Assembly: GCF_021117405.1 (NCBI RefSeq)
Contig: NZ_CP088251.1
Location: 248,001 to 312,000, forward strand
Reading direction: 5' to 3'
From: Frateuria edaphi
GTDB taxonomy: Bacteria; Pseudomonadota; Gammaproteobacteria; Xanthomonadales; Rhodanobacteraceae
DNA: 64,000 nucleotides
Both the position numbers and the translations under genes were made by a program. Position 1 is the stretch's first letter. The number at the start of each line of letters is the position of its first letter. This document shows positions 20,898-40,333 of the stretch, piece after piece. The notes beneath the pieces are model-generated. The model worked only from the letters and a program-made list of their open reading frames with translations. It ran no database searches and was not told where the DNA came from.

Positions 20898-21944
20898 TCA
20901 GTGCGCCAGGAACGGCTGCGCGATCTTCAGCGCCGTCTGGTACGGCTCCGGCTCGTTGCGGTTGCTGAGCAGGATGACGGTGAGGTGCTGCTTCGGCCAG
21001 CGCACGATCACATTGCGGAAGCCGATGCTCTCGCCCGAGTGCCACAACGTGTCGCCGGTGATGCGCCAGCCGTAGCCGTAGTCCGCTTCGTAGGGCTCGC
21101 CGGTGACCTTGGCGTGCGGGCTGAAGGCGGCCTTGCGCGAGGCGTCGCTGAGCAGGCGGTCGTCGTAGAGCGCGGCGTCCCATTTGGCGAGGTCGTCGAT
21201 GTTCGAGTAGATGCCGCCGTCCCCGCGGGTGGCGGAGGTGAGGCTCTGGTCGGTGCGCAGCCAGCGCCCCTTGGTCCAGCTGTAGCCGTAGGCGCGGTTG
21301 GGTATGGCCTTGTCGTCGTGCACGTAGAGCAGCGTGTGGTCCATGTGCAGCGGCTGGAAGATGCGCTGCGCGAGGAAGTCCTGCAGGGTCTTGCCGGAGG
21401 CCTTTTCCACCACCAGTCCGAGCAGCACGTAACCGGAATTGCTGTAGCGATAGGCCGTGCCCGGCGCGAAGTAGCTGCGCGACGTGGCCGAAAGCAGCCG
21501 CAACACGTCCTGGTCGTTGAGCTGGGCGGTCTGATCGGGAGGCATGAGGTCCTCGTAGTCGATCAGGCCGCCGGTGTGGCTGAGCAACTGGCGCAAGGTG
21601 ACCTTGTCGGTGCTCGCCGGCAGCGAGGGCAGCCAGTGACGGATCGAATCATCGAGCTTGAGCTTGCCGTCCTCGGCCAGCAGCAGGATCGCCGCGGCGG
21701 TGAACTGCTTGCTCACCGAAGCGAGGCGGAAATCGGTGTGCGGCGTGACCTGCGCATGCTGTTCGAGATCGGCCAGGCCATAGCCCTTGCGCAGGAGTGG
21801 GTTGCCGTCCTTGAGCACGAGCAGGGCGGCGCCGGGGACGTCGCCCCGGTAGTCGTGCATCAGGCGGTCGGCGTTCTGCACGGCATCGGTCGCGTTGACC
21901 GAGCCGGCAAAGAAGATCGAAGCGAACAGCAGGGCGATGCGCAT
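20898..21944 (-). CDS. Secreted SxxK serine hydrolase (beta-lactamase/D,D-peptidase family)
   Basis: 348 residues with a signal peptide cleaved near SVNA-TD. The penicillin-binding/class C beta-lactamase fold is marked by SVSK (Ser 76, Lys 79), YSNSGY as the YxN motif, and HSGESIG in place of KTG. The HxG third motif is typical of EstB/D-aminopeptidase-like members and less so of true beta-lactamases, so resistance activity is not implied. The mature enzyme should act in the periplasm on D-amino-acid-containing peptides or esters. It is the most distal minus-strand gene of the putative wall-peptide locus, following a VanX-type dipeptidase. The substrate is not determinable from sequence. Confidence 0.88.
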   Translation of the reverse strand: MRIALLFASIFFAGSVNATDAVQNADRLMHDYRGDVPGAALLVLKDGNPLLRKGYGLADLEQHAQVTPHTDFRLASVSKQFTAAAILLLAEDGKLKLDDSIRHWLPSLPASTDKVTLRQLLSHTGGLIDYEDLMPPDQTAQLNDQDVLRLLSATSRSYFAPGTAYRYSNSGYVLLGLVVEKASGKTLQDFLAQRIFQPLHMDHTLLYVHDDKAIPNRAYGYSWTKGRWLRTDQSLTSATRGDGGIYSNIDDLAKWDAALYDDRLLSDASRKAAFSPHAKVTGEPYEADYGYGWRITGDTLWHSGESIGFRNVIVRWPKQHLTVILLSNRNEPEPYQTALKIAQPFLAH

Positions 21945-22016
21945 GCGTTTCTCCGTGCGTTGAACTTGACCACCCTCCCGAGGGCAGAGGGGTTCAGCCG
22001 CGTGCCGCGGGAAGAC

Positions 22017-22811
22017 CTACCTCACCGGCACGTCGTAGATCACGTGCGGTGTAGGCTCGCGGGCCCAGGTGTAGTGCCACCACTCCAGCGGGTAGTTCTT
22101 GAAGCCCTCGCGCTCCATCGCCGCGCGCAGGCGCAGCCGGTTGGCGTGCTGCGCGGGCGTGACGTCCGGGGCATCGGTGTGCGCGCGCACGTCGAAGAAG
22201 TCGAACGGCGTGCCCATGTCCAGTGCCTTGCAGCGGCTGCCGTGGTCGTCACACTGCTCCATCGTGAGGTCGGCCGTGCCGCCGCGACTGTGTCCCGACA
22301 CCGGCGCGATGTAGTCGCCCAGCAGCACGGACTTGTCCAGCCGCGGATAGTGCGCAGCCTTGGTGTGCTGGTCGGACAGGTCGTGCGCCCAGCGCACGAA
22401 GTGCGCCACGGCCCGCGCGGGGCGGTAGCAGTCCCACAGCTTCAGGCGCTGGTGCGTCGCGCGCAATGCATGCTCGACGCGTGCCAGCGCCTCGGCCACG
22501 GGGCGCTTGAGCAGGCACTTGGGCGCGAGATAGCCGTCCACCGGCGAGCCGACGAAGTTGTCATGGCCGGCGTACTTGATGTCCTGGGCGATGTCGGGCA
22601 CGAGGGTACGGATGTCGACCAGGTCGGCTGCGGCGGCGGTCGGGGCGGGGGAGAGCGTGACGGTGTCCTTGGCGGGCGCCGGCATCGACAGCACCCATGC
22701 GCATGCCAGTGCGATCCGACAGCAGGAGCGCACCCTGTGCGCGACCCGGCCATTCCGCTCTGCCCGGCCGCGCAGAGGGTGCGCTCCTGCAAGTGCGATG
22801 AGGCGTCTCAT
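22017..22811 (-). CDS. D-alanyl-D-alanine dipeptidase (VanX/DdpX family), signal region carrying an inserted palindrome
   Basis: A zinc-dependent D-Ala-D-Ala dipeptidase. SGHSRGGTADLT supplies the His and Asp ligands, and EWWHY supplies the catalytic Glu and third ligand His; WDCYRPARA is the substrate Arg region. The ATG at 22811 overlaps the stop of the upstream serine hydrolase (ATGA), giving 264 residues. However, an 84-bp palindromic insert splits the signal peptide: MRRLIAL is separated from ACAWVLSMPAPA by a charged stretch. Deleting the insert restores a textbook signal peptide. A GTG at 22733, inside the insert, would give a 238-residue protein with signal MRSCCRIALACAWVL, and may now be the working start. 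The neighbours are all D-peptide or wall-peptide enzymes, which suggests catabolic use and not glycopeptide resistance. Confidence 0.88.
   Translation of the reverse strand: MRRLIALAGAHPLRGRAERNGRVAHRVRSCCRIALACAWVLSMPAPAKDTVTLSPAPTAAAADLVDIRTLVPDIAQDIKYAGHDNFVGSPVDGYLAPKCLLKRPVAEALARVEHALRATHQRLKLWDCYRPARAVAHFVRWAHDLSDQHTKAAHYPRLDKSVLLGDYIAPVSGHSRGGTADLTMEQCDDHGSRCKALDMGTPFDFFDVRAHTDAPDVTPAQHANRLRLRAAMEREGFKNYPLEWWHYTWAREPTPHVIYDVPVR
22708..22799. repeat. REP/MITE-like palindromic element with 8-bp flanking direct repeat
   Basis: AGTGCGAT occurs at 22708-22715 and again at 22792-22799, exactly 84 bases apart. Between them are two 22-base inverted arms (22722-22743 and 22769-22790, each reading GCAGGAGCGCACCC inward, one mismatch) with a 25-base loop. 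The layout is that of a mobile palindrome with target duplication. The arms resemble the element at 45069-45136. Confidence 0.82.
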
Positions 22812-24391
22812 GGGCAATCTCCGATGCGCTCGAAGTGCAGATCCTCGTAGTCCGAGCTGAAGTCGCCCTCGGGATCGAGCTTGGCCATGGTGAGCGTGGG
22901 CGGCGAGCCGGCATGGGGGTCGAGCCAGGCATCCAGGTCCACGGCCGGGTCGTCCCAGTGCACCAGGTAGCGCGCGTCCAGGTGCTTGACCGTGCCGTGC
23001 ATGTGCGGCGACTTGCGCGAGGCCCATTCGACGCGATCCCCGCGCGGGCACAGCGTGATCTCGCCGAACCACGGGTCGCGGTAGCGGCCACTCCAGGCGA
23101 AGCCGGTCGGCGCCACGGCAGTGGCCGCGTCGGTGTCGGGCGGACGCGCGGCGGCGGGACGCTGTGCCGCGTCGTGGTCGAGCGCGTCGGCGTACCACGC
23201 CACGCCGTGGCCGCCGTCGGGCGCGGTGAAGTGCTTGGTCAGCACCTCGCCCAGCACGGTGCGTGCGTCCTCGGCCTCGCCATTGATCATGAATACGAAG
23301 CCGCTCCGGCGATCGGGCAACAGCGCCAGCATCGAATACATGCCGCCCAGCGTGCCGGTGTGCCAGACCACCCAGGTTCCGTCCACGTCGGCCATGCGCC
23401 AGCCGTAGCCGTAGGCCATCACGTGGCTGTGGTCCCAGGCGCGGCGCTGGTTGGACACCGGGATCAGCATGTGCGGCGACTGCAGCACCTCGCGCTGGGT
23501 GGAAGAAAGCCACTTCAACTGCGCAGGCGTGGGCGTCAGCCAGTTCCGTGCCCAGCTCAGCATGTCGGTGAGATCGCAGCGGATGCCGCCTGCCGGGTCG
23601 GAGGTGATCGCGGGAATAACCGCGCCGTCCTGGCGCATGGGCAGGTTCTGGCCGTCCTTGCGGTAGTGCGGCTGGGCCACGTTGCCGACCTGCTCGCGGT
23701 TCCACGTGCCGACCTGGCAGCGGGACAATCCCAGCGGCTGGAACACCTCGCGGTGCATCAGCTCCTCGTAGGGCGCGCCGCCGGCGGCCGCGGCGACTTC
23801 GCCGGCCACCACGTAGAGCAGGTTGTCGTACTGGTACTGCGAGCGGAAGCTGTAGCCGGGCTTGATGTAGCGCAGCCCGTGAATGATGTCCTGGCGCGTG
23901 AAGGCGTTCGGCTCGGGCCACAGCATCAGGTCGCCGCCGCCTTCGGGCAGGCCGCTGGAGTGGGTGAGCAGGTCGCCCACGCGCATGTGCTTCGTGACCC
24001 ACGGGTCGGACATGCGGAAGTCGGGCAGGTATTTCGTGACCGGGTCGTCCCAGGCGAGCTCGCCCTTGTCGACCAGCCGCCCGAGCAGCGCGGTGGTCAT
24101 CGCCTTGCTGTTGGAGGCGATCTTGAAGAGCGTCCGCGGGGTGATCCTTTCGCCGGAGCCGGCGACGGTTTCGCCGCGGGTGGCGATGTAGGTGACCTGG
24201 CCGTTTTCGATCACGCCCACCGCAATGCCCGGCAGATGGTAGCGGGCGACGACCGCATCGACGACCGGGTCGAAAGTCCTTCCAGCCGGAGGCTGGATGG
24301 GCGAGGCCTGCGCGCTGCCCGCCAGGCAGGCCGTGACGAGCAGGGCGAGAGCGAGGCTTTTCGGTGCGCCAGGGCGCTCAGTGCCGCGCAT
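22808..24391 (-). CDS. Secreted SxxK serine hydrolase, beta-lactamase superfamily with C-terminal extension
   Basis: 527 residues from ATG 24391. The start is chosen because it gives a clean signal peptide (SLALALLVTACLAGSAQA); longer frames overlap the dipeptidase gene by more than needed. The catalytic motifs are SNSK (Ser 93, Lys 96), a YDN motif in QYQYDNLLY, and WHTGTLGG. After about residue 390 there is a lipocalin-like C-terminal domain (GRYRDPWFGEITLCPRGDRVEW), as in DUF3471-bearing serine hydrolases and D-aminopeptidases. It overlaps the upstream dipeptidase by 14 bases and the downstream VanX-type gene by an ATGA junction, so the three are one translational unit. The likely substrate is a D-amino-acid peptide, by context. 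Confidence 0.88.
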   Translation of the reverse strand: MRGTERPGAPKSLALALLVTACLAGSAQASPIQPPAGRTFDPVVDAVVARYHLPGIAVGVIENGQVTYIATRGETVAGSGERITPRTLFKIASNSKAMTTALLGRLVDKGELAWDDPVTKYLPDFRMSDPWVTKHMRVGDLLTHSSGLPEGGGDLMLWPEPNAFTRQDIIHGLRYIKPGYSFRSQYQYDNLLYVVAGEVAAAAGGAPYEELMHREVFQPLGLSRCQVGTWNREQVGNVAQPHYRKDGQNLPMRQDGAVIPAITSDPAGGIRCDLTDMLSWARNWLTPTPAQLKWLSSTQREVLQSPHMLIPVSNQRRAWDHSHVMAYGYGWRMADVDGTWVVWHTGTLGGMYSMLALLPDRRSGFVFMINGEAEDARTVLGEVLTKHFTAPDGGHGVAWYADALDHDAAQRPAAARPPDTDAATAVAPTGFAWSGRYRDPWFGEITLCPRGDRVEWASRKSPHMHGTVKHLDARYLVHWDDPAVDLDAWLDPHAGSPPTLTMAKLDPEGDFSSDYEDLHFERIGDCP

Positions 24392-25586
24392 CGCGCTCCA
24401 CCTCGTGCCACACGCGCAGCAGGTTGCCGCCCCAGACCTTGGCGATGTCGGCGTCGCTGAATCCGGCACGGCGCAGCGCGGCGGCGACGTTGCGGGTCTC
24501 GCTGGCGTCCTTCCAGCCGGTGATGCCGCCGCCGCCGTCGAAATCCGAGGCGATGCCGACGTGATCGATGCCGGCCACATCCGCAATGTGGCGGATCTGC
24601 TTGGCGTAATCCTCGACCGTGGGGAGCGGGAATTCCTGCTGGATCTTCGCCATGCCCGCGGCCATCGCCGGCAGGTAATCGTGCTTGTCGCTGTCGTATT
24701 CCTTGTCGCCGGCCGCGTGCGCGACCTCGGCCTGCAATTTCTTCTCCGCCGCTTCGCGGCCCGGGTCGTTCTTGAGGAACTCCTTGTAGGCCACCGCCTG
24801 GATCACGCCGCCCTTGGCAGCGATCGCGCGCAGCAGGTCGTCGGGCAGGTTGCGCGGATGGTCAAGCACGGCGCGGGCGCCCGAATGGGAGGCGATGAGT
24901 GGCGCCCTGGATACGGCGAGCGCGTCACGCACGCAGGCGTCCGAGGCATGCGAGACATCGACCATCATGCCGAGCGCGTTGGCGCGCGCGACCACCTGGC
25001 GGCCGAAGTCGGTCATGCCATGGTCGCCCTTGCTGTTCATCGCCGGCTCGCCGTTGTCCTTGTCCGGCAGCGAGCTGGTGCACAGGTCGTTGTTGCCCAC
25101 ATGCACCAGCCCGACGTAGCGCGCGCCGCGGTCGTAGGCGGCATCCAGCCGGTGCAGGTCGTGGCCGAGCGAATAGGCGTTCTCGATGCCGATCATCGCC
25201 GAGAGCAGGCCGGACTTGCGGTTGGCCAGCGCCTGTTCGGGCGAGGTGGCCAGGCGGATGCGGTCCGGATACATCATCAGCATCCGGCCGATCGCTTCGT
25301 ACTTTTCCTCGGCCTGGTCGACCGCCCTGGCGTAGCCGGCCGCATCGAGCTTGTGCTGCGGCACCCAGATCACGAAGAAGGCGGCATCCAGCCCACCGCG
25401 CTGCATCTTTCCAAGGTCCACCAGCAGCGGCGTGGCCTTGCCGACGTCGAAGCGTGGCTCGCGCATGTAGGTGAAGGGGATATCGACGTGGGTGTCGATG
25501 GTGATCGGCGGGTCCTGCTGCGCCTGGGCGGGAAGCGCGGCGGCGAGCGGCAGGGCGAGCAGGGCAAGATGGGCGAGTCTACGCAT
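24378..25586 (-). CDS. Secreted membrane dipeptidase (peptidase M19, renal dipeptidase family)
   Basis: 402 residues with a signal peptide ending LPAQA-QQD. It is a binuclear zinc dipeptidase of the amidohydrolase fold. The first ligands are His 33 and Asp 35 in DTHVDIP, a bridging Glu is in IGIENAYSLG, and further His residues are in VDVSHASD and IASHSGAR. The C-terminal IDHVGIASDFDGGGG is a family hallmark. Bacterial members often prefer dipeptides with a C-terminal D-residue or L-Ala-Glu-type substrates. In this cluster the enzyme could cleave periplasmic dipeptides released from the wall. It shares 14 bases with the serine hydrolase and lies 16 bases before the decarboxylase gene's stop. 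Confidence 0.93.
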   Translation of the reverse strand: MRRLAHLALLALPLAAALPAQAQQDPPITIDTHVDIPFTYMREPRFDVGKATPLLVDLGKMQRGGLDAAFFVIWVPQHKLDAAGYARAVDQAEEKYEAIGRMLMMYPDRIRLATSPEQALANRKSGLLSAMIGIENAYSLGHDLHRLDAAYDRGARYVGLVHVGNNDLCTSSLPDKDNGEPAMNSKGDHGMTDFGRQVVARANALGMMVDVSHASDACVRDALAVSRAPLIASHSGARAVLDHPRNLPDDLLRAIAAKGGVIQAVAYKEFLKNDPGREAAEKKLQAEVAHAAGDKEYDSDKHDYLPAMAAGMAKIQQEFPLPTVEDYAKQIRHIADVAGIDHVGIASDFDGGGGITGWKDASETRNVAAALRRAGFSDADIAKVWGGNLLRVWHEVERDARH

Positions 25587-25601
25587 GTGCGGCGGATGTC
25601 C

Positions 25602-26900
25602 TCATGGCGTGGCCCAATCCTGCGCCGACTGCTCGCCGGCGACCATCTCCTCGAGGGTCTGCCGGCGCCGGATGACCGCGTAGCGGCCATCGTCCAGCAG
25701 TACCTCGGCGGCGAGCGGGCGCGAGTTGTAGGTGGAAGCCATCGACGCGCCGTACGCGCCGGTGCCCTGGATGGCGAGCAGGTCGCCCGGTTGGCACGCC
25801 GGCAGAACGCGTGCGCGTGCGAAGGTGTCGCCGGTCTCGCAGACCGGGCCGACCACGTCGTAGGTGGCCAGCGGCCGAGGATCGGGCGCGACCGGCACGA
25901 TGTCGTGCCAGGCGTCGTAGAGGCTTGGCCGCTGCAGGTCGTTCATCGCCGCATCGAGTACCAGGAAGGACCGCTCGGTACCTTCCTTGATGCGCAGCAC
26001 ACGGGTGAGCAGCACGCCGGCCTCCGCCACCAGGTAACGGCCGGGCTCCAGCAGCAGGCGGCCCTCGAAGCCGGCCAGTGCCTCGCGGACCACGTTGGCG
26101 TAGTCGCCGGCGGCGACGGGCCGGTCGTGGCCGGCGCGGTAGCGCACGCCGAGGCCGCCACCGACGTCGATGCTGGCGATCGGGTGGCCGGCATGGAGCA
26201 ATTCGCGCCAGAACGACGCGACGCGGTTCAATGCCAGCCGGAAGGGTTCCAGGTCGAGGATCTGCGAGCCGATGTGCACGTGCAGGCCGTCCAGCCGCAC
26301 GTGCGGCAGTTGCCGGCGTTCGGCGAACCAGCGGCGCGCCTCGGCGATGCTCACGCCGAACTTGTTCTCGGCGCGGCCGGTGGAAATCTTGGCGTGGGTG
26401 AGCGCATCGACGTCCGGGTTGATGCGCACCGCGGCGTTCGCCACCACGCGTCGTGCGGCGGCCACCCGCTCGATGGCGTGCAGCTCGTCCAGCGATTCGA
26501 CATTGAAGCGCGCAACGCCGGCGGCGAGCGCCGCGGCGATCTCCCCCTTGGTCTTGCCGACGCCGGAGAACACGATGCGGTTGGCCGGGATGCCCGCGGC
26601 GAGGGCGCGCTGCATTTCGCCGGCGGAAACGATGTCCGCGCCCAGCCCGGCGGCGGCCATCAGTTCGAGGATGGCGCGGTTGCTGTTGGCCTTGACCGCG
26701 TAGCAGATGGTGGCGTCCAGGCCGTGCAGGGCAGACTGGAGTTCGCCGATCCGCCCGCGGATTGCGTTGGCCGAGTAGGCATACAGCGGCGTGCCCAGTC
26801 GCGAGGCCAGCGCCTGCAGGTCCACGCCATCGAAGGTCGGTTGCGGGTCGGGCACGGACGCGGTGTCGTCGTGCCGGGAGGAGACGGTCATGGGGTCCAT
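25602..26900 (-). CDS. lysA: Diaminopimelate decarboxylase
   Basis: About 432 residues if started at ATG 26900. An ATG at 26891 with GGA seven bases upstream is equally plausible, and an earlier TTG at 26915 lies in the preceding terminator's T-tract and is rejected. It is a PLP fold-type III enzyme: CYAVKANSN carries the PLP Lys, HVHIGSQ and ENKFGV are typical, and GPVCETGD and GAYGASMASTYNSRP form the meso-DAP site at the dimer interface. It decarboxylates meso-DAP to L-lysine in the cytoplasm. Xanthomonads are known for a fused LysA-aspartokinase for biosynthesis, so this stand-alone copy, placed among murein-peptide genes, may serve DAP catabolism. That last point is inference. Confidence 0.92.
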   Translation of the reverse strand: MDPMTVSSRHDDTASVPDPQPTFDGVDLQALASRLGTPLYAYSANAIRGRIGELQSALHGLDATICYAVKANSNRAILELMAAAGLGADIVSAGEMQRALAAGIPANRIVFSGVGKTKGEIAAALAAGVARFNVESLDELHAIERVAAARRVVANAAVRINPDVDALTHAKISTGRAENKFGVSIAEARRWFAERRQLPHVRLDGLHVHIGSQILDLEPFRLALNRVASFWRELLHAGHPIASIDVGGGLGVRYRAGHDRPVAAGDYANVVREALAGFEGRLLLEPGRYLVAEAGVLLTRVLRIKEGTERSFLVLDAAMNDLQRPSLYDAWHDIVPVAPDPRPLATYDVVGPVCETGDTFARARVLPACQPGDLLAIQGTGAYGASMASTYNSRPLAAEVLLDDGRYAVIRRRQTLEEMVAGEQSAQDWATP

Positions 26901-26913
26901 TCGAGCGAGGCCC

Positions 26914-26943
26914 AAAAAAGACGGCCCGCGGTGACCGCGGGCC
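26914..26943 (-). terminator. Intrinsic terminator of the TonB receptor gene
   Basis: On the minus strand, the perfect hairpin GGCCCGCGG-TCA-CCGCGGGCC (26923-26943) is followed by GTC and six Ts (26914-26919). It begins 18 bases after the receptor stop and ends just before lysA. It should separate the receptor transcript from the lysA-dipeptidase-hydrolase unit. Confidence 0.9.
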
Positions 26944-26960
26944 GCCAGGCGGGGAGGGCC

Positions 26961-29960: not shown

Positions 29961-30008
29961 TTCCCCTACTCCCCTCGACGCCGGGTCGATGTCAGATGAA
30001 CTTGTTGG

Positions 30009-31514: not shown

Positions 31515-31603
31515 CGCACAACGCCCCCGCCAGTTGGCATCAAGGCCTTGTGTAACACGCTTGCAAAAGGTGGTCAATAATTTATGCTTCGAGATAACGT
31601 ATG

Positions 31604-31620
31604 AGGAATGGCATATTCCT
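31604..31620. promoter_or_regulatory. Candidate operator AGGAAT-N5-ATTCCT in divergent promoter region
   Basis: A perfect 6-base inverted repeat with a 5-base spacer (GGCAT) lies between the transglutaminase-like gene (minus) and the DUF819 gene (plus), 24 bases before the latter's GTG. The flanking region is the most AT-rich of the locus. It is a plausible site for the MurR/RpiR regulator encoded at 35379-36230; binding is inference. Confidence 0.5.
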
Positions 31621-31644
31621 GACGCGACGCATGAGGGGTAGCGC

Positions 31645-32796
31645 GTGATCCACACGGTATGGCCGTACCTGGCCGTGATGCTGCTGGCTGCCGGCCTGTT
31701 CCCGGCGCTGGAGCGGCGAACCGGCTGGCGGGTGTTCAACGTGCTGCCGCCGATCGTCTTCACCTACCTGCTGGTGACCGCGCTGGCGGTGACCGGGCTG
31801 TGGGAGGTCAACGACGAAATCCACGCCGCGCAGTCGATGCTGGTCTCGCGCATGGTGCCGGCGCTGCTGTTCCTGCTGATGATCAACTGCGACCTGCGCG
31901 CGATCTTCAAGCTGGGGCCGCGGGTGCTGGGCGTGTTCGCCTGCACCTCGGTAAGCCTGTTCATCGCCTTCATTGCCACCTTCCTGATCTACCGGCGCTG
32001 GTTGCCGGGCGATGCCTGGCACCCGCTGGCGGCGCTGTCGGGCAGTTGGGTGGGTGGTACGGCGAACATGATCGCGGTGAAGCAGGCGATCGGCATGTCG
32101 GACCAGCACCTGGCGATGAGCCTGCTGACCGACGCGCTCTGCTATTCGACCTGGGTGGCCGTGCTGTTCGCGGTGGCGCGGCTGGCGCCGGCGTTCAACC
32201 ATTGGACCAGGGCCAAGTCGACCGGCGACCTGCCGGTGGCCGAGGCGAAGGCGACCGGGCCGACCACCCCCGATTCGGTGCTGCTGTGGCTGGGCATGGC
32301 GCTGGCGGCGGCGGCGCTGAGCGCCTGGCTGGCCGGGTACCTGCCGACCTCGACCATGATCAGCCCCACCACCTGGACGATCCTGCTCGCCACCGGCGCG
32401 GGGCTGGTGGTGGCGCACACGCCGCTCGCGCGCTATCCCGGCGCGGGGACCATCTCCAGTGCGATGCTGATCAGCGTGGTGGCGGTGCTCGCCTCGCAGA
32501 GCAACTTCCACGGTATCGGCGCGGCGCCGTTGTACCTGCTGTGCGGCGTGACCATCATCGCGTTGCACGCGGTGTTGCTGGTCGGCTTCGCCAAGCTGTT
32601 CCGTTTCGATCTCTATCTGTGCGGGATCTCCTCGCTGGCCCACATCGGCGGCGTCGCGGCCACGCCGGTGCTGGCGGCGAGCTATTCGCGCGCGCTGGTG
32701 CCGGTGGGCATCCTGCTCGCGCTGCTGGGCTACATACTGGGCACCGGTTTCGGCCTGCTGGTCGCGTCGATCATGTCGGCGCTGGCCGGAACCTGA
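31645..32796 (+). CDS. DUF819 family integral membrane protein (putative permease)
   Basis: 383 residues, starting at GTG 31645 with GAGGGG at 31633-31638 upstream. It has about ten to twelve hydrophobic segments with short loops. Family marks include GSWVGGTANMIAVKQA, SAMLISVVAVLASQSNFHGIGAAP and ISSLAHIGGVAATPVLAASY, which place it in DUF819 (YjcL-like). The inverted internal arrangement of the Gly-rich motifs suggests a transporter. The family's substrate is not established to my knowledge. It is the first plus-strand gene after the divergent region and precedes the NlpC/P60 and Ala-Glu epimerase genes. An inner-membrane importer of wall-derived dipeptides is an attractive guess. Confidence 0.88.
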   Translation: MIHTVWPYLAVMLLAAGLFPALERRTGWRVFNVLPPIVFTYLLVTALAVTGLWEVNDEIHAAQSMLVSRMVPALLFLLMINCDLRAIFKLGPRVLGVFACTSVSLFIAFIATFLIYRRWLPGDAWHPLAALSGSWVGGTANMIAVKQAIGMSDQHLAMSLLTDALCYSTWVAVLFAVARLAPAFNHWTRAKSTGDLPVAEAKATGPTTPDSVLLWLGMALAAAALSAWLAGYLPTSTMISPTTWTILLATGAGLVVAHTPLARYPGAGTISSAMLISVVAVLASQSNFHGIGAAPLYLLCGVTIIALHAVLLVGFAKLFRFDLYLCGISSLAHIGGVAATPVLAASYSRALVPVGILLALLGYILGTGFGLLVASIMSALAGT

Positions 32797-32815
32797 CCCC
32801 ATGAGGACCACGACC

Positions 32816-34216
32816 ATGCGAACCCTTCTTCCTTCGGCGCTGCTGGCCCTGCTGCTGGCGACGCAGCCGCTGCATGCGCGCGAGCAGGTGTCGACGCTGA
32901 GCGTTCCACCCTCGGGCGTGCTGGGCGTGGGGGAGGCGCAGCTGACGCCCGCGTTCTGGATCGGCCTGCAGCCGCAGCCGGACCGGGTGATCCTCAGCCG
33001 CCAGCAAATCGAGGCGCAGAACGCGAAGCTGTTCGCGCAGGACAAGTCCATGCACGAGCTGGCCAAGCTGCCGGCGAGCTTGAGTGCCACGCAGGTGCGC
33101 GGCTGGATCGAGGACCTCGCCGACCCGCCGTCCAAGCCGCTCTACGACGTCGATGGCAAGCCGGTGCCGCAGAGGGCGCTCAGGAAAATCGTCGACGCGC
33201 GTGCGCTCGATGCGATTCCCGCCAGCCAGAAGACCCGCTTCGGGCTGGTGGTGCGCCGCGCCGCGCTGCGCACCTTTCCGACCACGCTGCGCGTGTTCAG
33301 CCATCCGGGCGACACCGACATCGACCGCTTCCAGGAAACGGCCGAGTTCCCCGGCACGCCGGTGGTGATCGCCCATGCCACCCGCGACGGCCGCTGGCTG
33401 TTCGTGGTGAGCCCGCGCTACGCCGCCTGGACCGAGGCGAAGAACATCGCCGAAGGCAGCCGGGACGCGGTGCTGGGCTACGCCGACAAGACGCCGTACC
33501 GCATCGTCACCGGCGCCAAGGTCTACACGGTCTACACCCGCGAAGCGCCCGCCGTCTCGCAGGTGGAGCTGGACATGGGCACGCGCGTGCCGGTGCTCAC
33601 CGACTTGGCCGCAGACCAGGCGGTCAACGGCCAGACGCCCTACGCCGCGCACGTGATCGAGCTGCCGGTACGCAAGGCCGACGGATCGCTCGCCTTCAGT
33701 CCCGCGCTGATCCAGAAGAACGCCGACACCGCGTCCGACTACCTGCCGCTGACCGCGCGCAACCTGATCACCCAGGCGTTCAAGTTCCTGGGCGAGCGCT
33801 ACGGCTGGGGCCATGCCTACGACGGGCGCGACTGCTCCGGTTTCGTCTCGGACGTCTACCGCTCGATGGGCGTGCAGATGCCGCGCAATACCTCCACCCA
33901 GGGCGTGAGCCCAGCCTTCGCCAGGCACGCCTTCAGCGACGCGAGCTCGCACGAGGAACGCCTGCAGGCGGCGCATGCGCTGCAGCTCGGCGACCTGGTC
34001 TACATCCCCGGCCACGTGATGATGTCGCTCGGCCAGTGGCAGGGTCAGCCGTGGATGATCCACGACGTGCTGGGCATGAGCTACCGCAAGGCCGACGGCT
34101 CGACCGCGCGCGTGACGCTCAACGCCGTCTCGGTCACGCCGTTGCTTCCGATGCTCTACGGCAAGGATTCGACCTTCATCGACCACATGACCAGCAACGT
34201 GCGGATGCGGCCCTGA
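32816..34216 (+). CDS. Secreted NlpC/P60 endopeptidase with SH3-type domains
   Basis: 466 residues from ATG 32816 (GAGG nine bases before). An in-frame ATG at 32801 is the alternative, adding MRTTT. The signal peptide ends QPLHA. The middle contains an N-terminal stabilising region and SH3b-like domains (about residues 120-290, e.g. GLVVRRAALRTFPTTLRVF and TGAKVYTVYTREAP). The C-terminal NlpC/P60 domain has the catalytic Cys 340 in GRDCSGF and His 400 in GHVMM. This architecture matches gamma-D-Glu-L-diamino-acid endopeptidases (YkfC-like), which cut L-Ala-gamma-D-Glu from meso-DAP. The next gene encodes the L-Ala-D/L-Glu epimerase, exactly the enzyme that would use the released dipeptide. 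Confidence 0.92.
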   Translation: MRTLLPSALLALLLATQPLHAREQVSTLSVPPSGVLGVGEAQLTPAFWIGLQPQPDRVILSRQQIEAQNAKLFAQDKSMHELAKLPASLSATQVRGWIEDLADPPSKPLYDVDGKPVPQRALRKIVDARALDAIPASQKTRFGLVVRRAALRTFPTTLRVFSHPGDTDIDRFQETAEFPGTPVVIAHATRDGRWLFVVSPRYAAWTEAKNIAEGSRDAVLGYADKTPYRIVTGAKVYTVYTREAPAVSQVELDMGTRVPVLTDLAADQAVNGQTPYAAHVIELPVRKADGSLAFSPALIQKNADTASDYLPLTARNLITQAFKFLGERYGWGHAYDGRDCSGFVSDVYRSMGVQMPRNTSTQGVSPAFARHAFSDASSHEERLQAAHALQLGDLVYIPGHVMMSLGQWQGQPWMIHDVLGMSYRKADGSTARVTLNAVSVTPLLPMLYGKDSTFIDHMTSNVRMRP

Positions 34217-34235
34217 GCGTTCCCGCGCAAGGGCC

Positions 34236-34253
34236 GGTGGGCGCCAACCCACC
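34236..34253. repeat. Small intergenic palindrome GGTGGG-N6-CCCACC
   Basis: GGTGGGCGCCAACCCACC with a CCTACGG tail lies between the NlpC/P60 and epimerase genes. It has the form of a short dispersed intergenic repeat and has no T-tract. Only one copy was found in this window, so its repeat status is inferred from resemblance to elements in related genomes. Confidence 0.4.
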
Positions 34254-34281
34254 CTACGGACAACAGAAGACCAACAACATC

Positions 34282-35379
34282 ATGAAGATCACAGACATCC
34301 AGTTCGGCATGCTGCGGGTGCCCTTGAAGACACCCTTCAAGACCGCGTTGCGCACCGTCAACCAGGTGGAAGACATCGTGGTGATGGTGCACACCGACAC
34401 CGGCCAGGTCGGCTACGGCGAGGCGCCGGCCACCGCGGTGATCACCGGCGACACGCACGGCTCGATCGTCGACGCGATCCGCCATTACATCTCCCCGCGC
34501 CTGATCGGCCAGGAAATCGCCAACCTCAACCGGATCACCCACCTGATCCAGGGCTCGATGGAAAAGAACTCCTCCGCCAAGGCGGCGGTGGAGATCGCCA
34601 TCTACGACCTGTGGGGCCAGCTCTACGGCGCGCCGTTGTACAAGCTGCTGGGTGGCGGCGACCCGGTGATCACCACCGACATCACCATCAGCGTGGACTA
34701 CATCGACAAGATGGTGTCGGACTCGGTCGCGGCGGTGGAGCGCGGTTTCGAGTCGCTCAAGATCAAGGTCGGCAAGGACATCGGCGTCGACATCGAGCGG
34801 GTCAAGGCGATCTACGCGGCGGTCGAAGGCCGCGCGCTGCTGCGCCTGGACGCCAACCAGGGCTGGACCGCCAAGCAGGCGGTGTACGCGCTGCAGACGC
34901 TGGAAGAGGCCGGCATCAAGCTGGAGCTGGTCGAGCAGCCGGTCAAGGCGCGCGACCTGGAAGGCATGCGCTACGTCACCGAGCGCGTGCACACCCCGGT
35001 GATGGCCGACGAGAGCGTGTTCGGTCCGATGGAGGTGATCGAGCTGATCCGCATGCGCGCGGCGGACATCATCAACATCAAGCTGATGAAGACCGGCGGC
35101 ATCTCCAACGCGATCAAGATCGCCGACATCGCCGCGCTGCACGGCATCGACTGCATGATCGGCTGCATGCTCGAGTCTTCCATCAGCGTGGCGGCCGCCG
35201 TGCACGTGGCGGTGGCGCGCGCCGACGCGATCAGCAAGATCGACCTGGACGGGCCGTCGCTGGCCCAGTTCAACCCGGTCGACGGTGGGGTAATCTTCAA
35301 CGAATCGGAAATCTCCGTGACCGACGCCCCGGGCCTCGGCATCCGCGAGATCAGGGGCCTGGAGAGGATCGCCGACTGA
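34282..35379 (+). CDS. L-Ala-D/L-Glu (dipeptide) epimerase, enolase superfamily
   Basis: 365 residues from ATG 34282. A longer in-frame extension from 34036 overlaps the NlpC gene and is rejected. Catalytic residues sit almost exactly at the positions of the characterised B. subtilis enzyme YkfB: K160 and K162 in KIKVG, metal ligands D190 (DANQGW), E218 (VEQPV) and D243 (ADES), second base K267 (IKLMKTGG), and D321/D323 in DLDGP, which hold the dipeptide amino group. It interconverts L-Ala-D-Glu and L-Ala-L-Glu in the cytoplasm, allowing murein dipeptide to be split by ordinary peptidases. Its stop overlaps the RpiR-type regulator start (TGATG). Specificity is a strong inference from the Asp pair. 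Confidence 0.95.
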   Translation: MKITDIQFGMLRVPLKTPFKTALRTVNQVEDIVVMVHTDTGQVGYGEAPATAVITGDTHGSIVDAIRHYISPRLIGQEIANLNRITHLIQGSMEKNSSAKAAVEIAIYDLWGQLYGAPLYKLLGGGDPVITTDITISVDYIDKMVSDSVAAVERGFESLKIKVGKDIGVDIERVKAIYAAVEGRALLRLDANQGWTAKQAVYALQTLEEAGIKLELVEQPVKARDLEGMRYVTERVHTPVMADESVFGPMEVIELIRMRAADIINIKLMKTGGISNAIKIADIAALHGIDCMIGCMLESSISVAAAVHVAVARADAISKIDLDGPSLAQFNPVDGGVIFNESEISVTDAPGLGIREIRGLERIAD

Positions 35380-36230
35380 TGTCGCCGCTGGTCAAAATCC
35401 GTTCGGAACGCGACCAGATGTCGGCGGTCGAGCGGCGCGTGGCCGACTTCATCCTGGAAAACGCGCACCTGCTGCGCGACTACTCCTCGCAGCAACTGGC
35501 CAACGCGCTGGGGATCAGCCAGTCCAGCGTGGTCAAGTTCACCCAGAAGCTGGGCTTCAAGGGCTACCCCGACCTCAAGTACTCCGTCAGCGAGGCGATC
35601 GCCCGCGCCGACAACGGCGACGCGCCGGCGCTGGCGCGGGCAGGCGAGGGCGAGGAGGAAGGCCCGGGCGCACTGTGGCGGCAAAAGTCCGAGGCGGAGG
35701 AGGCCAGCCGGCTGATCAATCCTCCGGAAGTGATCCACGCCATCGCGACCGCCATCGAGCAGGCCGGGCGCGCGGGCAAGGTTTTCATCATTGGCCTCGG
35801 CGAGGATGACATCTACGCGCGCAACTTCGCGCTGCGGCTGTCGCTGCTGGGCATTCTCACCGTGCACAACTTCGACACCGCGCGGATGACCGCGAACGTG
35901 TCGGCGGCCGGCGCCGGCGACGTGCTGCTGGTGTTCTCCGAGCACGGCAACCATCCGGCGCTGTGCAAGATCGCGCGTTACTTCCGCGAGCGGCGCGGCA
36001 AGGTGATCACCGTCACCCGGCACACCGCCAATCCGCTGCGCACGCTGGCCGATATCCAGTTGCTGGTCAGTGCGCACGACGAGCGGCCGTACATCCAGCC
36101 GCTGCTCTACCAGTCGGCGCTGCAGCACCTGCTGGACAACGTGTTCGTGCGCCTGTGCGAGGAACACGACGATCGCCATGCACAGCTCCTGGCCAACCTG
36201 GAGCGCATCCAGTTGATGCTGGAGCCGTGA
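35379..36230 (+). CDS. MurR/RpiR family transcriptional regulator
   Basis: 283 residues from ATG 35379, overlapping the epimerase stop by one base, so the two are coupled. The N-terminal HTH_6 domain (residues 1-77) shows YSSQQLANALGISQSSVVKFTQKLGFKGYPDLK. After an acidic linker, the C-terminal SIS domain (about 125-265, VFIIGLGEDDIYARNFALRLSLLG and LLVFSEHGNHPALCKIA) normally binds a phosphosugar or related effector. In E. coli, MurR controls MurNAc-6P use, so a wall-derived effector is plausible here. It is likely the local regulator, with the 31604-31620 palindrome as a candidate site. Effector and sites are not shown by sequence. Confidence 0.93.
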   Translation: MSPLVKIRSERDQMSAVERRVADFILENAHLLRDYSSQQLANALGISQSSVVKFTQKLGFKGYPDLKYSVSEAIARADNGDAPALARAGEGEEEGPGALWRQKSEAEEASRLINPPEVIHAIATAIEQAGRAGKVFIIGLGEDDIYARNFALRLSLLGILTVHNFDTARMTANVSAAGAGDVLLVFSEHGNHPALCKIARYFRERRGKVITVTRHTANPLRTLADIQLLVSAHDERPYIQPLLYQSALQHLLDNVFVRLCEEHDDRHAQLLANLERIQLMLEP

Positions 36231-36301
36231 GGTGGCCGTTCGCTCTTGCGCTTGCCATCCACGCGGGCAGGCGCTCGCTTACCCCGAGAGATCGATTTCC
36301 C

Positions 36302-37066
36302 ATGCGTAACTGTCTGCTGCTGGGTCTGGCGTTGGTCTTCGCCGGAAATGCCGTCGCCGCGGCCGACGAATCCGCCGCCTGGTCCGACGCCGGCCAGATG
36401 GTCGTGGTCACCACGCCCGGCTGGAACGTCAACCACGGCACCCTGCGCACCTACGAGCGCACCGCCGACGGCTGGAAGGAAGCCGGCGCGCCCGCCCTGG
36501 TCACCATCGGCAAGGCCGGCGCGGGCTGGGGGCTCGGCCTCAACGCCCCGCGCCACGACGGCCCGGTCAAGCGCGAAGGCGACCTGCGCAGCCCGGCCGG
36601 CGTGTTCGACATCGGCGAGGCGTTCGGCTACGCCGCCAAGGCGGACACCGCGATGCCCTACCGCGCGCTCAGCGCCACCGACTATTGCGTCGACGTCAGC
36701 GGCTCGCCCCAGTACAACCGCATCGTCGACGCCAAGGTCGCGGGCGAGAAGGCGGTAGAGGGTTCCACCGAACCGATGCGCCGCGACCTGCACGTGCACG
36801 GCGACCAGCGTTACCGGCAGGGCTTCGTGATCGAGCACAACCCGCAGCAGCGCGCACAGGGCGGCAGCTGCATCTTTGCCCATCTGTGGAAGTCGCCGGT
36901 CGACGCGACTACCGGTTGCACCGCCATGGATCCCTCGCTGATGCACCGCCTGCTGGCATGGCTGCGTCCGGACGAGCATCCGGTGTTCGTGCTGTTGCCC
37001 GCGTCTACCTATGAAAAGCTGCAAGCCGAATGGCATCTGCCAGCGCTGGAGGAAGCGGCCCGATGA
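36302..37066 (+). CDS. Secreted L,D-transpeptidase-like (YkuD fold) enzyme
   Basis: 254 residues from ATG 36302, with a signal peptide ending GNAVA-A. The mature part holds GPVKREGDLRSPAGVFDIGE, a YkuD-family strand pair, and the catalytic segment FAHLWKSPVDATTGCTAM, with His 194 and Cys 206. The spacing H-x11-C is shorter than in classical L,D-transpeptidases (typically HGxx near a SHGC motif). The enzyme belongs to the divergent YafK/ErfK-like branch found in proteobacteria, some of which act as amidases or carboxypeptidases. Its stop overlaps the symporter start (ATGA). In this locus it could free D-amino acids or DAP from wall peptides. Fold confident, reaction uncertain. Confidence 0.85.
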   Translation: MRNCLLLGLALVFAGNAVAAADESAAWSDAGQMVVVTTPGWNVNHGTLRTYERTADGWKEAGAPALVTIGKAGAGWGLGLNAPRHDGPVKREGDLRSPAGVFDIGEAFGYAAKADTAMPYRALSATDYCVDVSGSPQYNRIVDAKVAGEKAVEGSTEPMRRDLHVHGDQRYRQGFVIEHNPQQRAQGGSCIFAHLWKSPVDATTGCTAMDPSLMHRLLAWLRPDEHPVFVLLPASTYEKLQAEWHLPALEEAAR

Positions 37067-38325
37067 GCCCCACCGCGCGCGTGCTGAGCGGCCTGGCCGC
37101 CGGCGCCATCCTCGGCCTGGTCCTGGCGGCGTGGAATCCACTGGTGGCCACGCAAGTGGCCGATGTGGTGTACCCGGTCGGCAAGCTCTGGCTCAACGGC
37201 CTGCAGATGACGGTCGTGCCGCTGGTGCTGGCGCTGGTGGTGGTCGGCGTCAATACGGCCACCGACGCGGCGGCGTCCGGGCGCATCGCGCGGCGCGCGA
37301 TCGTGGTGTTCATCCTGTTGCTGTTGCTCGGTGCGTTGTTCACCGCCGCGGCGGCGCCGGCGCTGTTCTCGCTCTTCCCGCACAACCCGGCCCTGCGCGA
37401 TGCGCTGGACCACGCGGTCGTGGGCAGCGCGGCGCAGGCCGCGCCGGTGAGTTGGTCGGCGGCGTTGATCGCGATGATTCCCAGCAACGCCATCATGGCC
37501 GCCGCGCAGAGCGCGATGCTGCCGCTGGTGGTGTTCGCGCTGTTCCTGGGCTTCGCGCTGACCCGCATCGCGCCCGCGCGGCGGGCCATGCTGGTGGAGT
37601 TCTTCCAGGCGATCGCCGACGCGATGATCGTGATCGTGCGCTGGGTGCTGTGGGTGGCGCCGCTGGGCGTGTTCGCGCTGATCCTGGGCGTGTGCGCGCG
37701 CTCGGGGCTGGGCATGCTGAGCGCGCTGGGTGTGTACGTGCTGGCGGAGATCGTGTTGTACCTGGCGGTGACCGCGATGATGTACGTCGTGGCGGTGGTC
37801 TGGGGCGGCGAGAAGCTGCGCCGCTTCGCCAGCGCGCTGCTGCCGCCGCAGGCGGTGGCGATCAGCACGCAGTCCTCGCTCGCCTCGTTGCCGGCGATGC
37901 TGGAAAGCGCCGAGCAACGGCTGGGCTACCCCAAGCAGGTCAACGCGCTCGTGCTGCCGATGGCGGTCACGCTGTGCCGCCTGACCAGTCCGGTGCAGTA
38001 CCTGACCTCGGCTGCCTTCATCGCGTGGGCCTACGGCGTCGACCTGTCCGCCGCCCAACTGATTGCCGGCGCGCTGCTGGCGGTGGTGATCAGCCTGGGC
38101 TCGGTGGGCCTGCCCGGCGCGGTGACCTTCATCGCGACGAATCTCCCGGTGGCGCAGTCGATGGGCCTGCCGCTCGGGCCGCTGGGCCTGATGCTGGCGG
38201 TCGACACGCTGCCTGATGCCTTCGCCACCCTCGGCAACGTCACCGCCGACGTCACCGCCACCAGCGTGGTGGCAAGGCAGTCGCGCGATGCCGCGCCGGC
38301 GCAGCCAGACGCAGGCCAGGCATAA
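37063..38325 (+). CDS. Dicarboxylate/amino acid:cation symporter (SDF/DAACS family)
   Basis: 420 residues from ATG 37063, overlapping the previous stop. Eight or so membrane helices with two re-entrant loops are expected. The family signatures are the Ser-rich AVAISTQSSLASLPAML in HP1, the substrate-site stretch VLPMAVTLCRLTSPVQYL, and VDTLPDAFATLGNVTADV (TM8) carrying the Asp residues. In canonical GltP proteins TM7 reads NMDGT; here the corresponding region is LPMAVTLCR, which departs from it, so the substrate may differ from glutamate/aspartate. By position it should import an acidic or D-amino acid for the next gene's product, a D-amino acid dehydrogenase. Substrate unproven. Confidence 0.9.
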   Translation: MSPTARVLSGLAAGAILGLVLAAWNPLVATQVADVVYPVGKLWLNGLQMTVVPLVLALVVVGVNTATDAAASGRIARRAIVVFILLLLLGALFTAAAAPALFSLFPHNPALRDALDHAVVGSAAQAAPVSWSAALIAMIPSNAIMAAAQSAMLPLVVFALFLGFALTRIAPARRAMLVEFFQAIADAMIVIVRWVLWVAPLGVFALILGVCARSGLGMLSALGVYVLAEIVLYLAVTAMMYVVAVVWGGEKLRRFASALLPPQAVAISTQSSLASLPAMLESAEQRLGYPKQVNALVLPMAVTLCRLTSPVQYLTSAAFIAWAYGVDLSAAQLIAGALLAVVISLGSVGLPGAVTFIATNLPVAQSMGLPLGPLGLMLAVDTLPDAFATLGNVTADVTATSVVARQSRDAAPAQPDAGQA

Positions 38326-38385
38326 CCCGCGCACAAACTTCCCTGCCTCCCCGCGACAGGGGAGAGATTCCCTGAGAGTCCCAGC

Positions 38386-39519
38386 ATGCAATCGATCGAA
38401 ACCGATGTGATCGTGATCGGCGCCGGCATGGCCGGTGCCTCGGTCGCCTATTTCCTCGCGCCGCACGCACGCGTGCTGGTGCTGGAGCGCGAGGCCTACG
38501 CCGGCATGCACTCCACCGGTCGTTCCGCGGCGCTGTTCAGCGAAACCTACGGCTCGCCGCAGGTGCGCGCGCTGACCCGCGCGACACGGCCGTTCCTCGA
38601 CCATCCACCTGAGGGTTTCGCCAGCGCGCCGATCCTCACGCCGCGCGGTTCAACCGTGATCGGCACCGCCGCCGATGCCGACCGGGTGCGCGCGGAGTAC
38701 GAGGCGATCCTGCCGTACACGCGCGATCTCGAGCTGCACGATGCCGCGCGCCTGCGTGCGAGCGTGCCGGTGCTGCGACCGGAAGCGGCCGCCATCGGCA
38801 TGCATGAGCCGGGTGCCGCCGACATCGACGTCAACGAGCTGCACCAGGGTTTCCTGCGCGGCCTGCGCGCACGCGGCGGGCAGTTGCGCCTGGACGTGGC
38901 CATTCGCGCCATCGAACGCACGGCCGCCGGCTGGGAAGTCGACGCGGGCGAGACGGTCTACCGCGCGCCACTGTTGCTCGACGCCGCCGGCGCGTGGGCC
39001 GACCAGGTCGCACGGATGGCCGGCGTCGCGCCGCTGGGCCTGCAACCGAAGCGCCGCTCGGCCTTCGTGTTCGAACCGCCGGCCGGCATGGAGGTGCACC
39101 GCTGGCCGTTCGTCTGCGACATCGCCGAGACCTTCTACTTCAAGCCCGACGCCGGCCTGCTGCTCGGCTCGGCGGCCAACGCGGACCCGGTCGACCCGCA
39201 CGACGTGCAGCCGGAGGAGTACGACATCGCGCTCGGCATCCACGGCATCGAGCAGGCCACTACCATGGAGATCCGCCGCCCGACCCGCACCTGGGCCGGC
39301 CTGCGCTCGTTCGTTGCCGATGGCGACCTGGTCGGCGGCTTTGCAGCCGACGCGCAGGGCTTCTTCTGGGTCGCCGCCCAGGGCGGCTACGGCATCCAGA
39401 CCAGCGCCGCGATGGGCGAGGCCTGCGCAAACCTGGCACTGGGCCGGCCGTTGCCGGGCCCGCTGACCGACGCCGGCATCACCGCGGAGATGCTGTCGCC
39501 CGCGCGCCTGTCCAGGTGA
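38386..39519 (+). CDS. FAD-dependent D-amino acid dehydrogenase (D-arginine dehydrogenase DauA-like)
   Basis: 377 residues. The FAD site is VIVIGAGMAGASVAYFL near the N-terminus with the acidic LEREA end. The segments HSTGRSAALFSETYGSPQVRALT, GADIDVNELHQG, GLQPKRRSAF, FYFKPDAG.LLGSAANADPV, TWAGLRSFVADGDLV and FFWVAAQGGYGIQTSAAMG follow, in short blocks, the Pseudomonas aeruginosa D-arginine dehydrogenase as I recall it. The His that contacts substrate there (His 48) aligns with Leu 50 here, while the loop Tyr is kept (Tyr 55), so substrate range may differ. The enzyme oxidises D-amino acids to keto acids plus ammonia, passing electrons to the quinone pool. It closes the plus-strand arm of the putative wall-peptide locus. 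Confidence 0.9.
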   Translation: MQSIETDVIVIGAGMAGASVAYFLAPHARVLVLEREAYAGMHSTGRSAALFSETYGSPQVRALTRATRPFLDHPPEGFASAPILTPRGSTVIGTAADADRVRAEYEAILPYTRDLELHDAARLRASVPVLRPEAAAIGMHEPGAADIDVNELHQGFLRGLRARGGQLRLDVAIRAIERTAAGWEVDAGETVYRAPLLLDAAGAWADQVARMAGVAPLGLQPKRRSAFVFEPPAGMEVHRWPFVCDIAETFYFKPDAGLLLGSAANADPVDPHDVQPEEYDIALGIHGIEQATTMEIRRPTRTWAGLRSFVADGDLVGGFAADAQGFFWVAAQGGYGIQTSAAMGEACANLALGRPLPGPLTDAGITAEMLSPARLSR

Positions 39520-40323: not shown

Positions 40324-40333
40324 GCGGGGCATC

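Follow-up and report, generated by a model that had tools for sequence, protein, structure and literature searches.

The closest described relatives of the locus reported here are the B. subtilis ykfABCD and E. coli ycjG-mpaA systems of the murein tripeptide pathway and the YkfC-dependent recycling of Chlamydia. In B. subtilis the ykf peptides enter through a permease that was unidentified as of 2010, according to the sections of that source drawn on here (PMC2954226); known entry routes for murein fragments are AmpG and the Opp ABC carrier, and import in Chlamydia is ascribed to OppABCDF, no DUF819 protein being named in the excerpts concerned (PMC9928106). In this respect Chlamydia differs from the present locus, 14 genes at positions 20898-39519 of a 64,000-nucleotide stretch of Frateuria edaphi DNA (contig NZ_CP088251.1, positions 248,001 to 312,000; the whole stretch is referred to as the window), in which a gene for a DUF819 membrane permease heads one of two arms.

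The chemistry of this locus is expected to be that of the tripeptide pathway, and with Chlamydia it would share an NlpC/P60 enzyme that cuts gamma-D-Glu-mDAP, as the excerpted source describes for YkfC (PMC9928106). Its layout is different. The putative endopeptidase has an N-terminus resembling a signal peptide, a feature shared with B. cereus and not with B. subtilis, and DUF819 takes the place of the peptide ABC genes (dppB-E in B. subtilis, oppA in B. cereus) given in the cited sections of PMC2954226. A YkuD protein replaces the L,D-carboxypeptidase YkfA of the ykf system, and genes for an RpiR regulator, a VanX-like dipeptidase, LysA and a TonB receptor are added. The locus thus appears ykf-like in chemistry with another layout, comprising periplasmic cutting, a DUF819 carrier, trimming by YkuD and a regulator of its own. 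That it serves murein-peptide catabolism is very probable; for the whole model, in which the locus is dedicated to the catabolism of murein stem peptides, answers to a single regulator and uses DUF819 as carrier, we estimate a probability of roughly 0.7. The core of this model had been put forward in an earlier note made from the letters of the stretch, and it is supported by linkage in relatives, a control region that tracks RpiR, a MurQ/NamZ context in other families and adjacency of DUF819 and epimerase across phyla.

Linkage of the locus genes in relatives

The 14 genes located by scans with Pfam and NCBIfam models form two divergent arms, whose junction lies at 31514-31645, and the genes that the earlier note had listed for 20898-39519 were all recovered. 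From the centre outward, the minus arm encodes a transglutaminase-core hydrolase (TGL), an Oar-like TonB receptor, LysA, an M19 dipeptidase, the SxxK hydrolase BlaB, a VanX-like M15 dipeptidase and a further SxxK hydrolase, BlaA; the plus arm encodes DUF819, NlpC/P60, an L-Ala-D/L-Glu epimerase, RpiR, YkuD, an SDF symporter and a DAO-superfamily oxidoreductase. Plus-arm genes are closely spaced, with a gap of 4 bases between DUF819 and NlpC, a single base shared by the end of the epimerase frame and the start of RpiR, and 4 bases shared by the YkuD and SDF frames.

A DUF819 search of 119 genomes returned a match in 59, of which 31 (own genome included) showed at least 56% identity and are called close. 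With DUF819 as the bait, the 30 other close loci were read in stretches of up to 20 kb with mechanical gene calls, and some gene absences may reflect stretch ends. DUF819 itself, NlpC, epimerase and YkuD, referred to as the quartet, were present in all 30 loci. Oar, TGL and RpiR were each found in 28, BlaB in 27, and VanX-like, M19 and SDF genes in 26 each, followed by the peripheral members BlaA (23), LysA (22) and DAO (21). The twelve genes from VanX through SDF occurred all together in 21 of the 30 loci and the complete set of 14 in 16, with gene order and strand maintained across the mapped loci; the epimerase was found in 31 of the 31 genomes with close DUF819. Two loci are reduced, L054 to the quartet and L058 to the quartet plus VanX. 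These loci and the counts identify the quartet as the core and the minus arm as an extension. The comparison of gene neighbourhoods proposed as a check in the earlier note thus returned conserved linkage. A chance neighbourhood was rejected, since the order is kept in relatives and the reduced loci retain the quartet.

Moreover, two genomes outside the order, among 398 genomes of the phylum searched, carry DUF819 at approximately 40% identity in a muramic acid context. In the first (G459, locus L172), DUF819, NlpC, epimerase and YkuD are followed on one strand by an SSS symporter, a NagK-like kinase that scores under its equivalog model's threshold, MurQ (414 bits against a cut-off of 302) and NamZ (272 bits against 27); farther out, the opposite strand carries a gene of the MurR/RpiR family that misses the equivalog cut-offs. 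In the second (G400, L173), Alr, an SSS symporter, MurQ, NamZ and a MurR/RpiR-family gene lie within about 7 kb of DUF819. NamZ, MurQ and MurR together constitute muramic acid catabolism. Since murein sugars are the substrates of the neighbours NamZ and MurQ, the two loci are independent evidence that DUF819 and the quartet belong to murein catabolism. The likeness to NamZ-MurQ-MurR is confined to such relatives: in the genome of the window NamZ was unmatched and MurQ reached 27.6 bits against the cut-off of 302, and the peptide part occurs here without these sugar partners. Two additional loci outside the order (L174, L175) combine NlpC and YkuD with the epimerase, with no DUF819 near; L175 also contains TGL and VanX.

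DUF819 as a candidate dipeptide importer

Because the putative endopeptidase looks secreted and the epimerase cytoplasmic, an importer of the dipeptide is needed, and linkage and compartments together make DUF819 the best candidate importer of L-Ala-D-Glu, an assignment that we moderately favour. A structural model of the protein (pLDDT 91.5, from 54 sequences) gave the sodium/citrate symporter CitS as the top Foldseek match (E 4e-6, query TM 0.52-0.67, 11-16% identity to the CitS chains), with AspT lower in the list. By its model, DUF819 would be a CitS-like elevator carrier. The cited part of PMC8396727 assigns DUF819 to the re-entrant fold type of the glutamate symporters, the type shared by CitS, GltS and AspT. 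The small acid L-Ala-D-Glu suits such a fold, by which the substrate is not proved. In a search of the 119 genomes for OppC_N, 30 had a match and the own genome had none; among the 31 genomes with close DUF819, only G019 showed one, below the cut-off.

To follow the pairing beyond the order, named genomes were scanned with a DUF819 alignment, and the best 80 of at least 551 confirmed relatives were taken, in order of similarity to the DUF819 of the window and regardless of neighbours; many of the 80 are metagenome bins. Anchored on the tblastn hit to DUF819, an epimerase match was found no more than 4 kb away in 26 of the 80 loci, a count that is not a whole-family frequency, and 25 of these lay on the same strand at a distance of up to 1.8 kb. 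No second epimerase match was present in any of the 80 loci in 664 kb of flank more than 4 kb from DUF819. Of the 26 linked loci, which represent eight phyla, 16 come from phyla other than Pseudomonadota, namely Campylobacterota (5), Omnitrophota (4) and Thermodesulfobacteriota (3), with one locus each from Myxococcota, Actinomycetota, Planctomycetota and Candidatus Wallbacteria. In four of the five Campylobacterota loci the DUF819 and epimerase frames overlap by 4 bases. NlpC was matched in 17 of the 80. Clustering of neighbours, performed for 69 loci as mechanical gene calls missed the DUF819 frame in the other 11, gave the epimerase as the biggest group (18 loci); the next groups, including SDF and NlpC, comprised 5 loci each.

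Linkage also follows the phylogeny of DUF819. On a tree from a quick search (unrooted, SH-aLRT, with long end branches for L117, L089, L088 and L097), the linked label required 4 changes compared with a mean of 23.9 after shuffling, and 0 of 500 shuffles were as low; 13 of 89 rows with too little flank were left out of this count. Linked rows fall into two separate clades of opposite gene order, the epimerase coming last in the first clade, DUF819(-NlpC)-epimerase, and leading in the second, epimerase-DUF819(-NlpC). Among 20 linked epimerases checked, the six catalytic residues were present in 19 and the DxD motif in 15, the alignment being too short elsewhere. Arg24 of the B. subtilis epimerase binds the Glu side chain; its equivalent is kept in the first clade where aligned, and in one of eight members of the second (L117, on a long branch). 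We consider it slightly better than an even chance that these DUF819 clades form a hitherto unassigned class of murein-dipeptide permeases, elevator carriers that supply the epimerase with L-Ala-D-Glu from the periplasm in eight phyla or more. In the literature searched, which leaves subscription sources outside, neither a murein-peptide role for DUF819/YjcL nor a description of the locus was found, and the assignment of this role across phyla is new as far as searched.

Other DUF819 clades lie near peptide functions, namely an OPT transporter (L068:4895-6865 and 9142-10398), an S9 peptidase (L137:7734-9800) and a POT carrier (L147:5230-6852), which may point to small-peptide handling in the family at large. 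A map from Neisseria meningitidis, in the portion of the source used, shows an M15 peptidase-DUF819 pair (PMC12671195).

Control region, enzymes and gene inventory

The MurR/RpiR regulator that had been described as embedded in the cluster was recovered by Pfam as an RpiR/SIS gene. Between the arms, an element with the sequence GGTCAATAATTTATGCTTC is followed by the palindrome GGAAT-N5-ATTCC. Among 41 loci with RpiR, defined as a homologue of more than 45% identity in the locus, 37 have the pattern of the first element upstream of the plus arm, as against 0 of 17 without; the four exceptions have 2 mismatches each. When L078, L080 and L081, taken as duplicates of L042, L050 and L048, are dropped, the element is present in 35 of 38 RpiR loci. 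L168 was not in the count, and L163 and L167 were classed as RpiR-less though holding a relative of 35-37% identity. In four loci with RpiR and no DUF819 (L159, L162, L164, L166), NlpC is the gene that the element precedes. Perfect palindromes like the one between the arms occur in 20 of the 41 RpiR loci and none of the 17 others, and in L037 both half-sites are altered in step (AGAAT...ATTCT). The window contains one palindrome match against 0.01 expected, and the first element has a single match in the 3.77 Mb genome at up to 3 mismatches, with 0 for the control. Such co-occurrence suggests that RpiR binds the control region, and the contrast between loci with and without RpiR is partly one of relatedness, the RpiR-less loci being also more distant. 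Promoter-like hexamers facing each other were read by eye, and a sigma-70 consensus scan returned one weak site other than these, leaving the -35/-10 assignment unproven.

The epimerase can be aligned with the B. subtilis enzyme (1JPM/1TKK) across almost its full length and has the entire catalytic set (K160, K162, D190, E218, D243, K267, D321, D323), including the two aspartates D321 and D323 that the earlier note had pointed out. Its identity is shown by sequence, and it is presumably active. The nearest solved structure for NlpC is 3M1U (E 1.6e-31), with C345, H405 and H421 as the Cys-His-His set; as in the ykf pathway, an NlpC/P60 protein with an SH3b-type domain adjoins the epimerase. Secretion-like N-termini, read by eye without a signal-peptide program, were seen on seven proteins (both SxxK proteins, M15, M19, TGL, NlpC and YkuD), in agreement with the periplasmic enzymes proposed earlier; LysA, epimerase, RpiR and DAO look cytoplasmic. 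The VanX dipeptidase of the earlier note held at the level of the M15 family, while the VanX equivalog model (NF033115) was missed at 184 bits against 320, the protein having been scored without its N-terminal part. The D-amino acid dehydrogenase of that note was not upheld: the gene encodes just a DAO-superfamily oxidoreductase, with NCBIfam scores far under the cut-offs. Elsewhere in the genome a second diaminopimelate (DAP) decarboxylase is encoded as an aspartokinase/DapDC fusion (PRK08961, 1220 bits, cut-off 802), which makes a catabolic role plausible for the LysA of the locus. The YkuD protein scored 15.5 bits with PF03734 (gathering 23.4), and 13 of 13 alignment members matched at E of 1 or less (best 1.9e-7). 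General Pfam scans of the window genes did not reveal an S66 L,D-carboxypeptidase (YkfA/LdcA); the YkuD protein is there instead.

In the proposed pathway, YkuD would take the terminal D-Ala off the stem peptide in the periplasm, where NlpC/P60, judged by family and context, would split the gamma-D-Glu-DAP bond to yield L-Ala-D-Glu and DAP. DUF819 would move the dipeptide over the inner membrane, and the cytoplasmic epimerase would convert it to L-Ala-L-Glu, cleavable by ordinary peptidases. VanX and M19 may remove D-amino-acid dipeptides, the extra LysA may convert DAP to lysine, and SDF and DAO may deal with the freed amino acids. RpiR would govern both arms from the shared region at 31552-31619.

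Table 1 Features of the locus in window coordinates; start codons of the M15 and BlaB genes were picked by eye and their coordinates are approximate.
Feature	Position	Strand	Evidence
BlaA, secreted SxxK serine hydrolase (PF00144, class C / DD-peptidase fold)	20898..21944	-	Pfam 251 bits; signal-like N-terminus
VanX-like M15 D,D-dipeptidase, secreted	22017..22811	-	Pfam 141 bits
BlaB, second secreted SxxK serine hydrolase (PF00144)	22808..24391	-	best NCBIfam AmpH, 98 bits, below cut-off 266
M19 membrane-dipeptidase family protein, signal-like N-terminus	24378..25586	-	Pfam 317 bits
LysA diaminopimelate decarboxylase, extra copy	25602..26900	-	TIGR01048 467.7 bits, passes cut-off 297.9
Oar-like TonB-dependent outer-membrane receptor	26961..29960	-	Plug, CarboxypepD_reg and OMP barrel domains
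TGL, secreted transglutaminase-core hydrolase	30009..31514	-	PF01841 61 bits
Candidate divergent promoter/operator element, conserved	31552..31590	.	includes GGTCAATAATTTATGCTTC at 31572-31590
Palindrome GGAAT-N5-ATTCC, candidate RpiR operator	31605..31619	+	
DUF819 membrane permease, putative L-Ala-D-Glu importer	31645..32796	+	PF05684 264.6 bits, passes cut-off 27
NlpC/P60 with SH3_6, secreted; putative gamma-D-Glu-DAP endopeptidase	32801..34216	+	Pfam
L-Ala-D/L-Glu epimerase (MR_MLE), cytoplasmic	34282..35379	+	1JPM/1TKK E 4e-101; catalytic residues
MurR/RpiR-family regulator with SIS domain	35379..36230	+	Pfam and NCBIfam
YkuD-fold enzyme, secreted; putative L,D-carboxypeptidase	36302..37066	+	PF03734 matches of alignment members
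SDF sodium:dicarboxylate/glutamate symporter	37063..38325	+	Pfam 264 bits
DAO-superfamily FAD oxidoreductase, peripheral member	38386..39519	+	Pfam 162 bits

Just past the cluster, a tentatively delimited open reading frame at 39688-40608 (minus strand) shows a short glutamine cyclotransferase match late in the frame, besides weak beta-propeller matches. At 547-2571 (plus strand) the window encodes a histidine kinase that reaches 465 bits with the model of the proteobacterial dedicated sortase system, a relative below the cut-off of 612.

Alternative readings and their weight

Several observations count against a strict model with DUF819 as the one carrier. Ten loci round DUF819 copies of approximately 30% identity (L062-L071, of which L065 was excluded from later alignments) showed no epimerase or NlpC matches, and 54 of the 80 named DUF819 loci have no epimerase nearby; the DUF819 family therefore does not all share one substrate. 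That all DUF819 proteins are one transporter type was rejected, neighbour groups besides the epimerase comprising no more than 5 loci. The epimerase, for its part, was found (E up to 1e-60) in 46 of the 119 genomes, 31 with and 15 without close DUF819; 12 of the latter carry a distant DUF819 elsewhere and 3 have no DUF819 match. NlpC stands beside the epimerase in 12 of the 13 such loci read, and in L168 the epimerase is alone. DUF819 as an obligate part was rejected on these 13 loci. DUF819 is usual yet replaceable, and another carrier can do the step, which is the main point against the strict one-carrier model.

The 13 loci without close DUF819 are diverse. YkuD is kept in eight (L156-L160, L162, L164, L166) and SDF in four (L156, L159, L160, L162). 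The loci L159, L162, L164 and L166, from another family, keep VanX, BlaB, Oar, TGL and RpiR, and L160 retains VanX in addition to SDF. L161, L163, L165 and L167 form a separate locus type; L161, the one checked, encodes an S66 L,D-carboxypeptidase along with a pair of membrane proteins with Gate domains. This spore-maturation-like pair (L161:7231-8426) lies by S66, epimerase and NlpC, and look-alike frames were noted in L163 and L165. A permease of the NhaC-type Na+/H+ antiporter family, possibly a substitute carrier, is encoded near NlpC-epimerase clusters without DUF819 (L167:9310-10686, L175:12411-13790), and an amino-acid permease near the cluster in L164. In L156 (genome G026), DUF819, Oar and M19 were apparently lost and the rest kept, which may mean that these three are a unit.

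At the level of single proteins, further points weigh on the same side. The YkfC subfamily of NlpC/P60 is defined by Asp256 of BcYkfC in the cited part of PMC2954226. This aspartate is not present in the NlpC of the window, where Asn363 occupies the position, as it does in 11 of 11 relatives checked; 3M1U likewise has Asn. The protein is, by sequence, an NlpC/P60 with SH3_6 outside the YkfC subfamily and may act like YkfC, given its family and context. In the relative L082 the third His of NlpC is replaced too. For YkuD, a sequence search of solved structures matched nothing, and the best match of its model (pLDDT 70.8) in the PDB was the weak one to Campylobacter Pgp2 (E 0.06), which we take to be an L,D-carboxypeptidase; on this weak fold match, a carboxypeptidase role is a tentative one. 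Finally, the genome encodes AmpG outside the locus (TIGR00901, 451 bits, cut-off 350). The absence of AmpG claimed in the earlier note accordingly holds among the locus genes scanned and fails for the genome; its view that the locus is not sugar-directed agrees with the lack of NamZ and of MurQ above cut-off and is weakened by the presence of AmpG, no search having been made for NagZ and AmpD.

These points bear on three other explanations. In one, which we regard as unlikely, the locus is for murein peptides and the cargo of DUF819 is DAP, D-Ala or an intact tri- or tetrapeptide, L-Ala-D-Glu being imported by POT or SDF proteins. Three POT-family genes in the own genome, possible alternative carriers that also count against our model, would allow this, as would the NlpC-epimerase clusters that dispense with DUF819, four of them with SDF, and L173, where a related DUF819 lies together with MurQ and Alr in a genome that is not one of the 11, out of 398, in which the epimerase was matched at E 1e-45. 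It is opposed by the DUF819-epimerase pairs of L088 (Brachybacterium) and L092 (Sulfurimonas), which have full flanks and no nearby NlpC or LysA match and thus tie DUF819 to the dipeptide step; four more Campylobacterota pairs have short flanks. A nutritional role, in which the locus serves exogenous wall debris or other D-amino-acid peptides entering via the Oar-like receptor and not recycling of the own wall, is a serious possibility that we rate somewhat short of even. The retention of Oar in most close loci and in the four DUF819-less loci of another family speaks for it, together with the extra LysA copy and the separate encoding of AmpG, the usual route for own-wall material; L054 and L058, however, drop Oar yet retain the quartet, and the substrate of Oar is not known. 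This explanation overlaps with ours and departs from it solely on where the peptides come from. The SxxK, VanX and YkuD genes could also mark an island for envelope maintenance or antibiotic response with the metabolic genes as passengers, as the two PF00144 proteins, the M15 dipeptidase and the YkuD enzyme might indicate. We consider this very improbable: epimerase, DUF819 and NlpC are in all 30 loci (chosen by DUF819), whereas 7 of them lack BlaA and 3 lack BlaB, and the SxxK proteins, at 109 and 92 bits, are far under the class C beta-lactamase cut-off of 415.

If a stem-peptide locus with DUF819 as carrier is the correct reading, DUF819 fills a gap in the ykf literature, the import step at the inner membrane, for organisms where stem peptides are cut outside. 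The layout would be a periplasm-first one, with cutting outside, import of the dipeptide and epimerisation inside, and the one-site control region would serve as a readout of the wall fragment sensed by the cell. The locus provides a testable permease candidate from a many-phylum Pfam family without known function.

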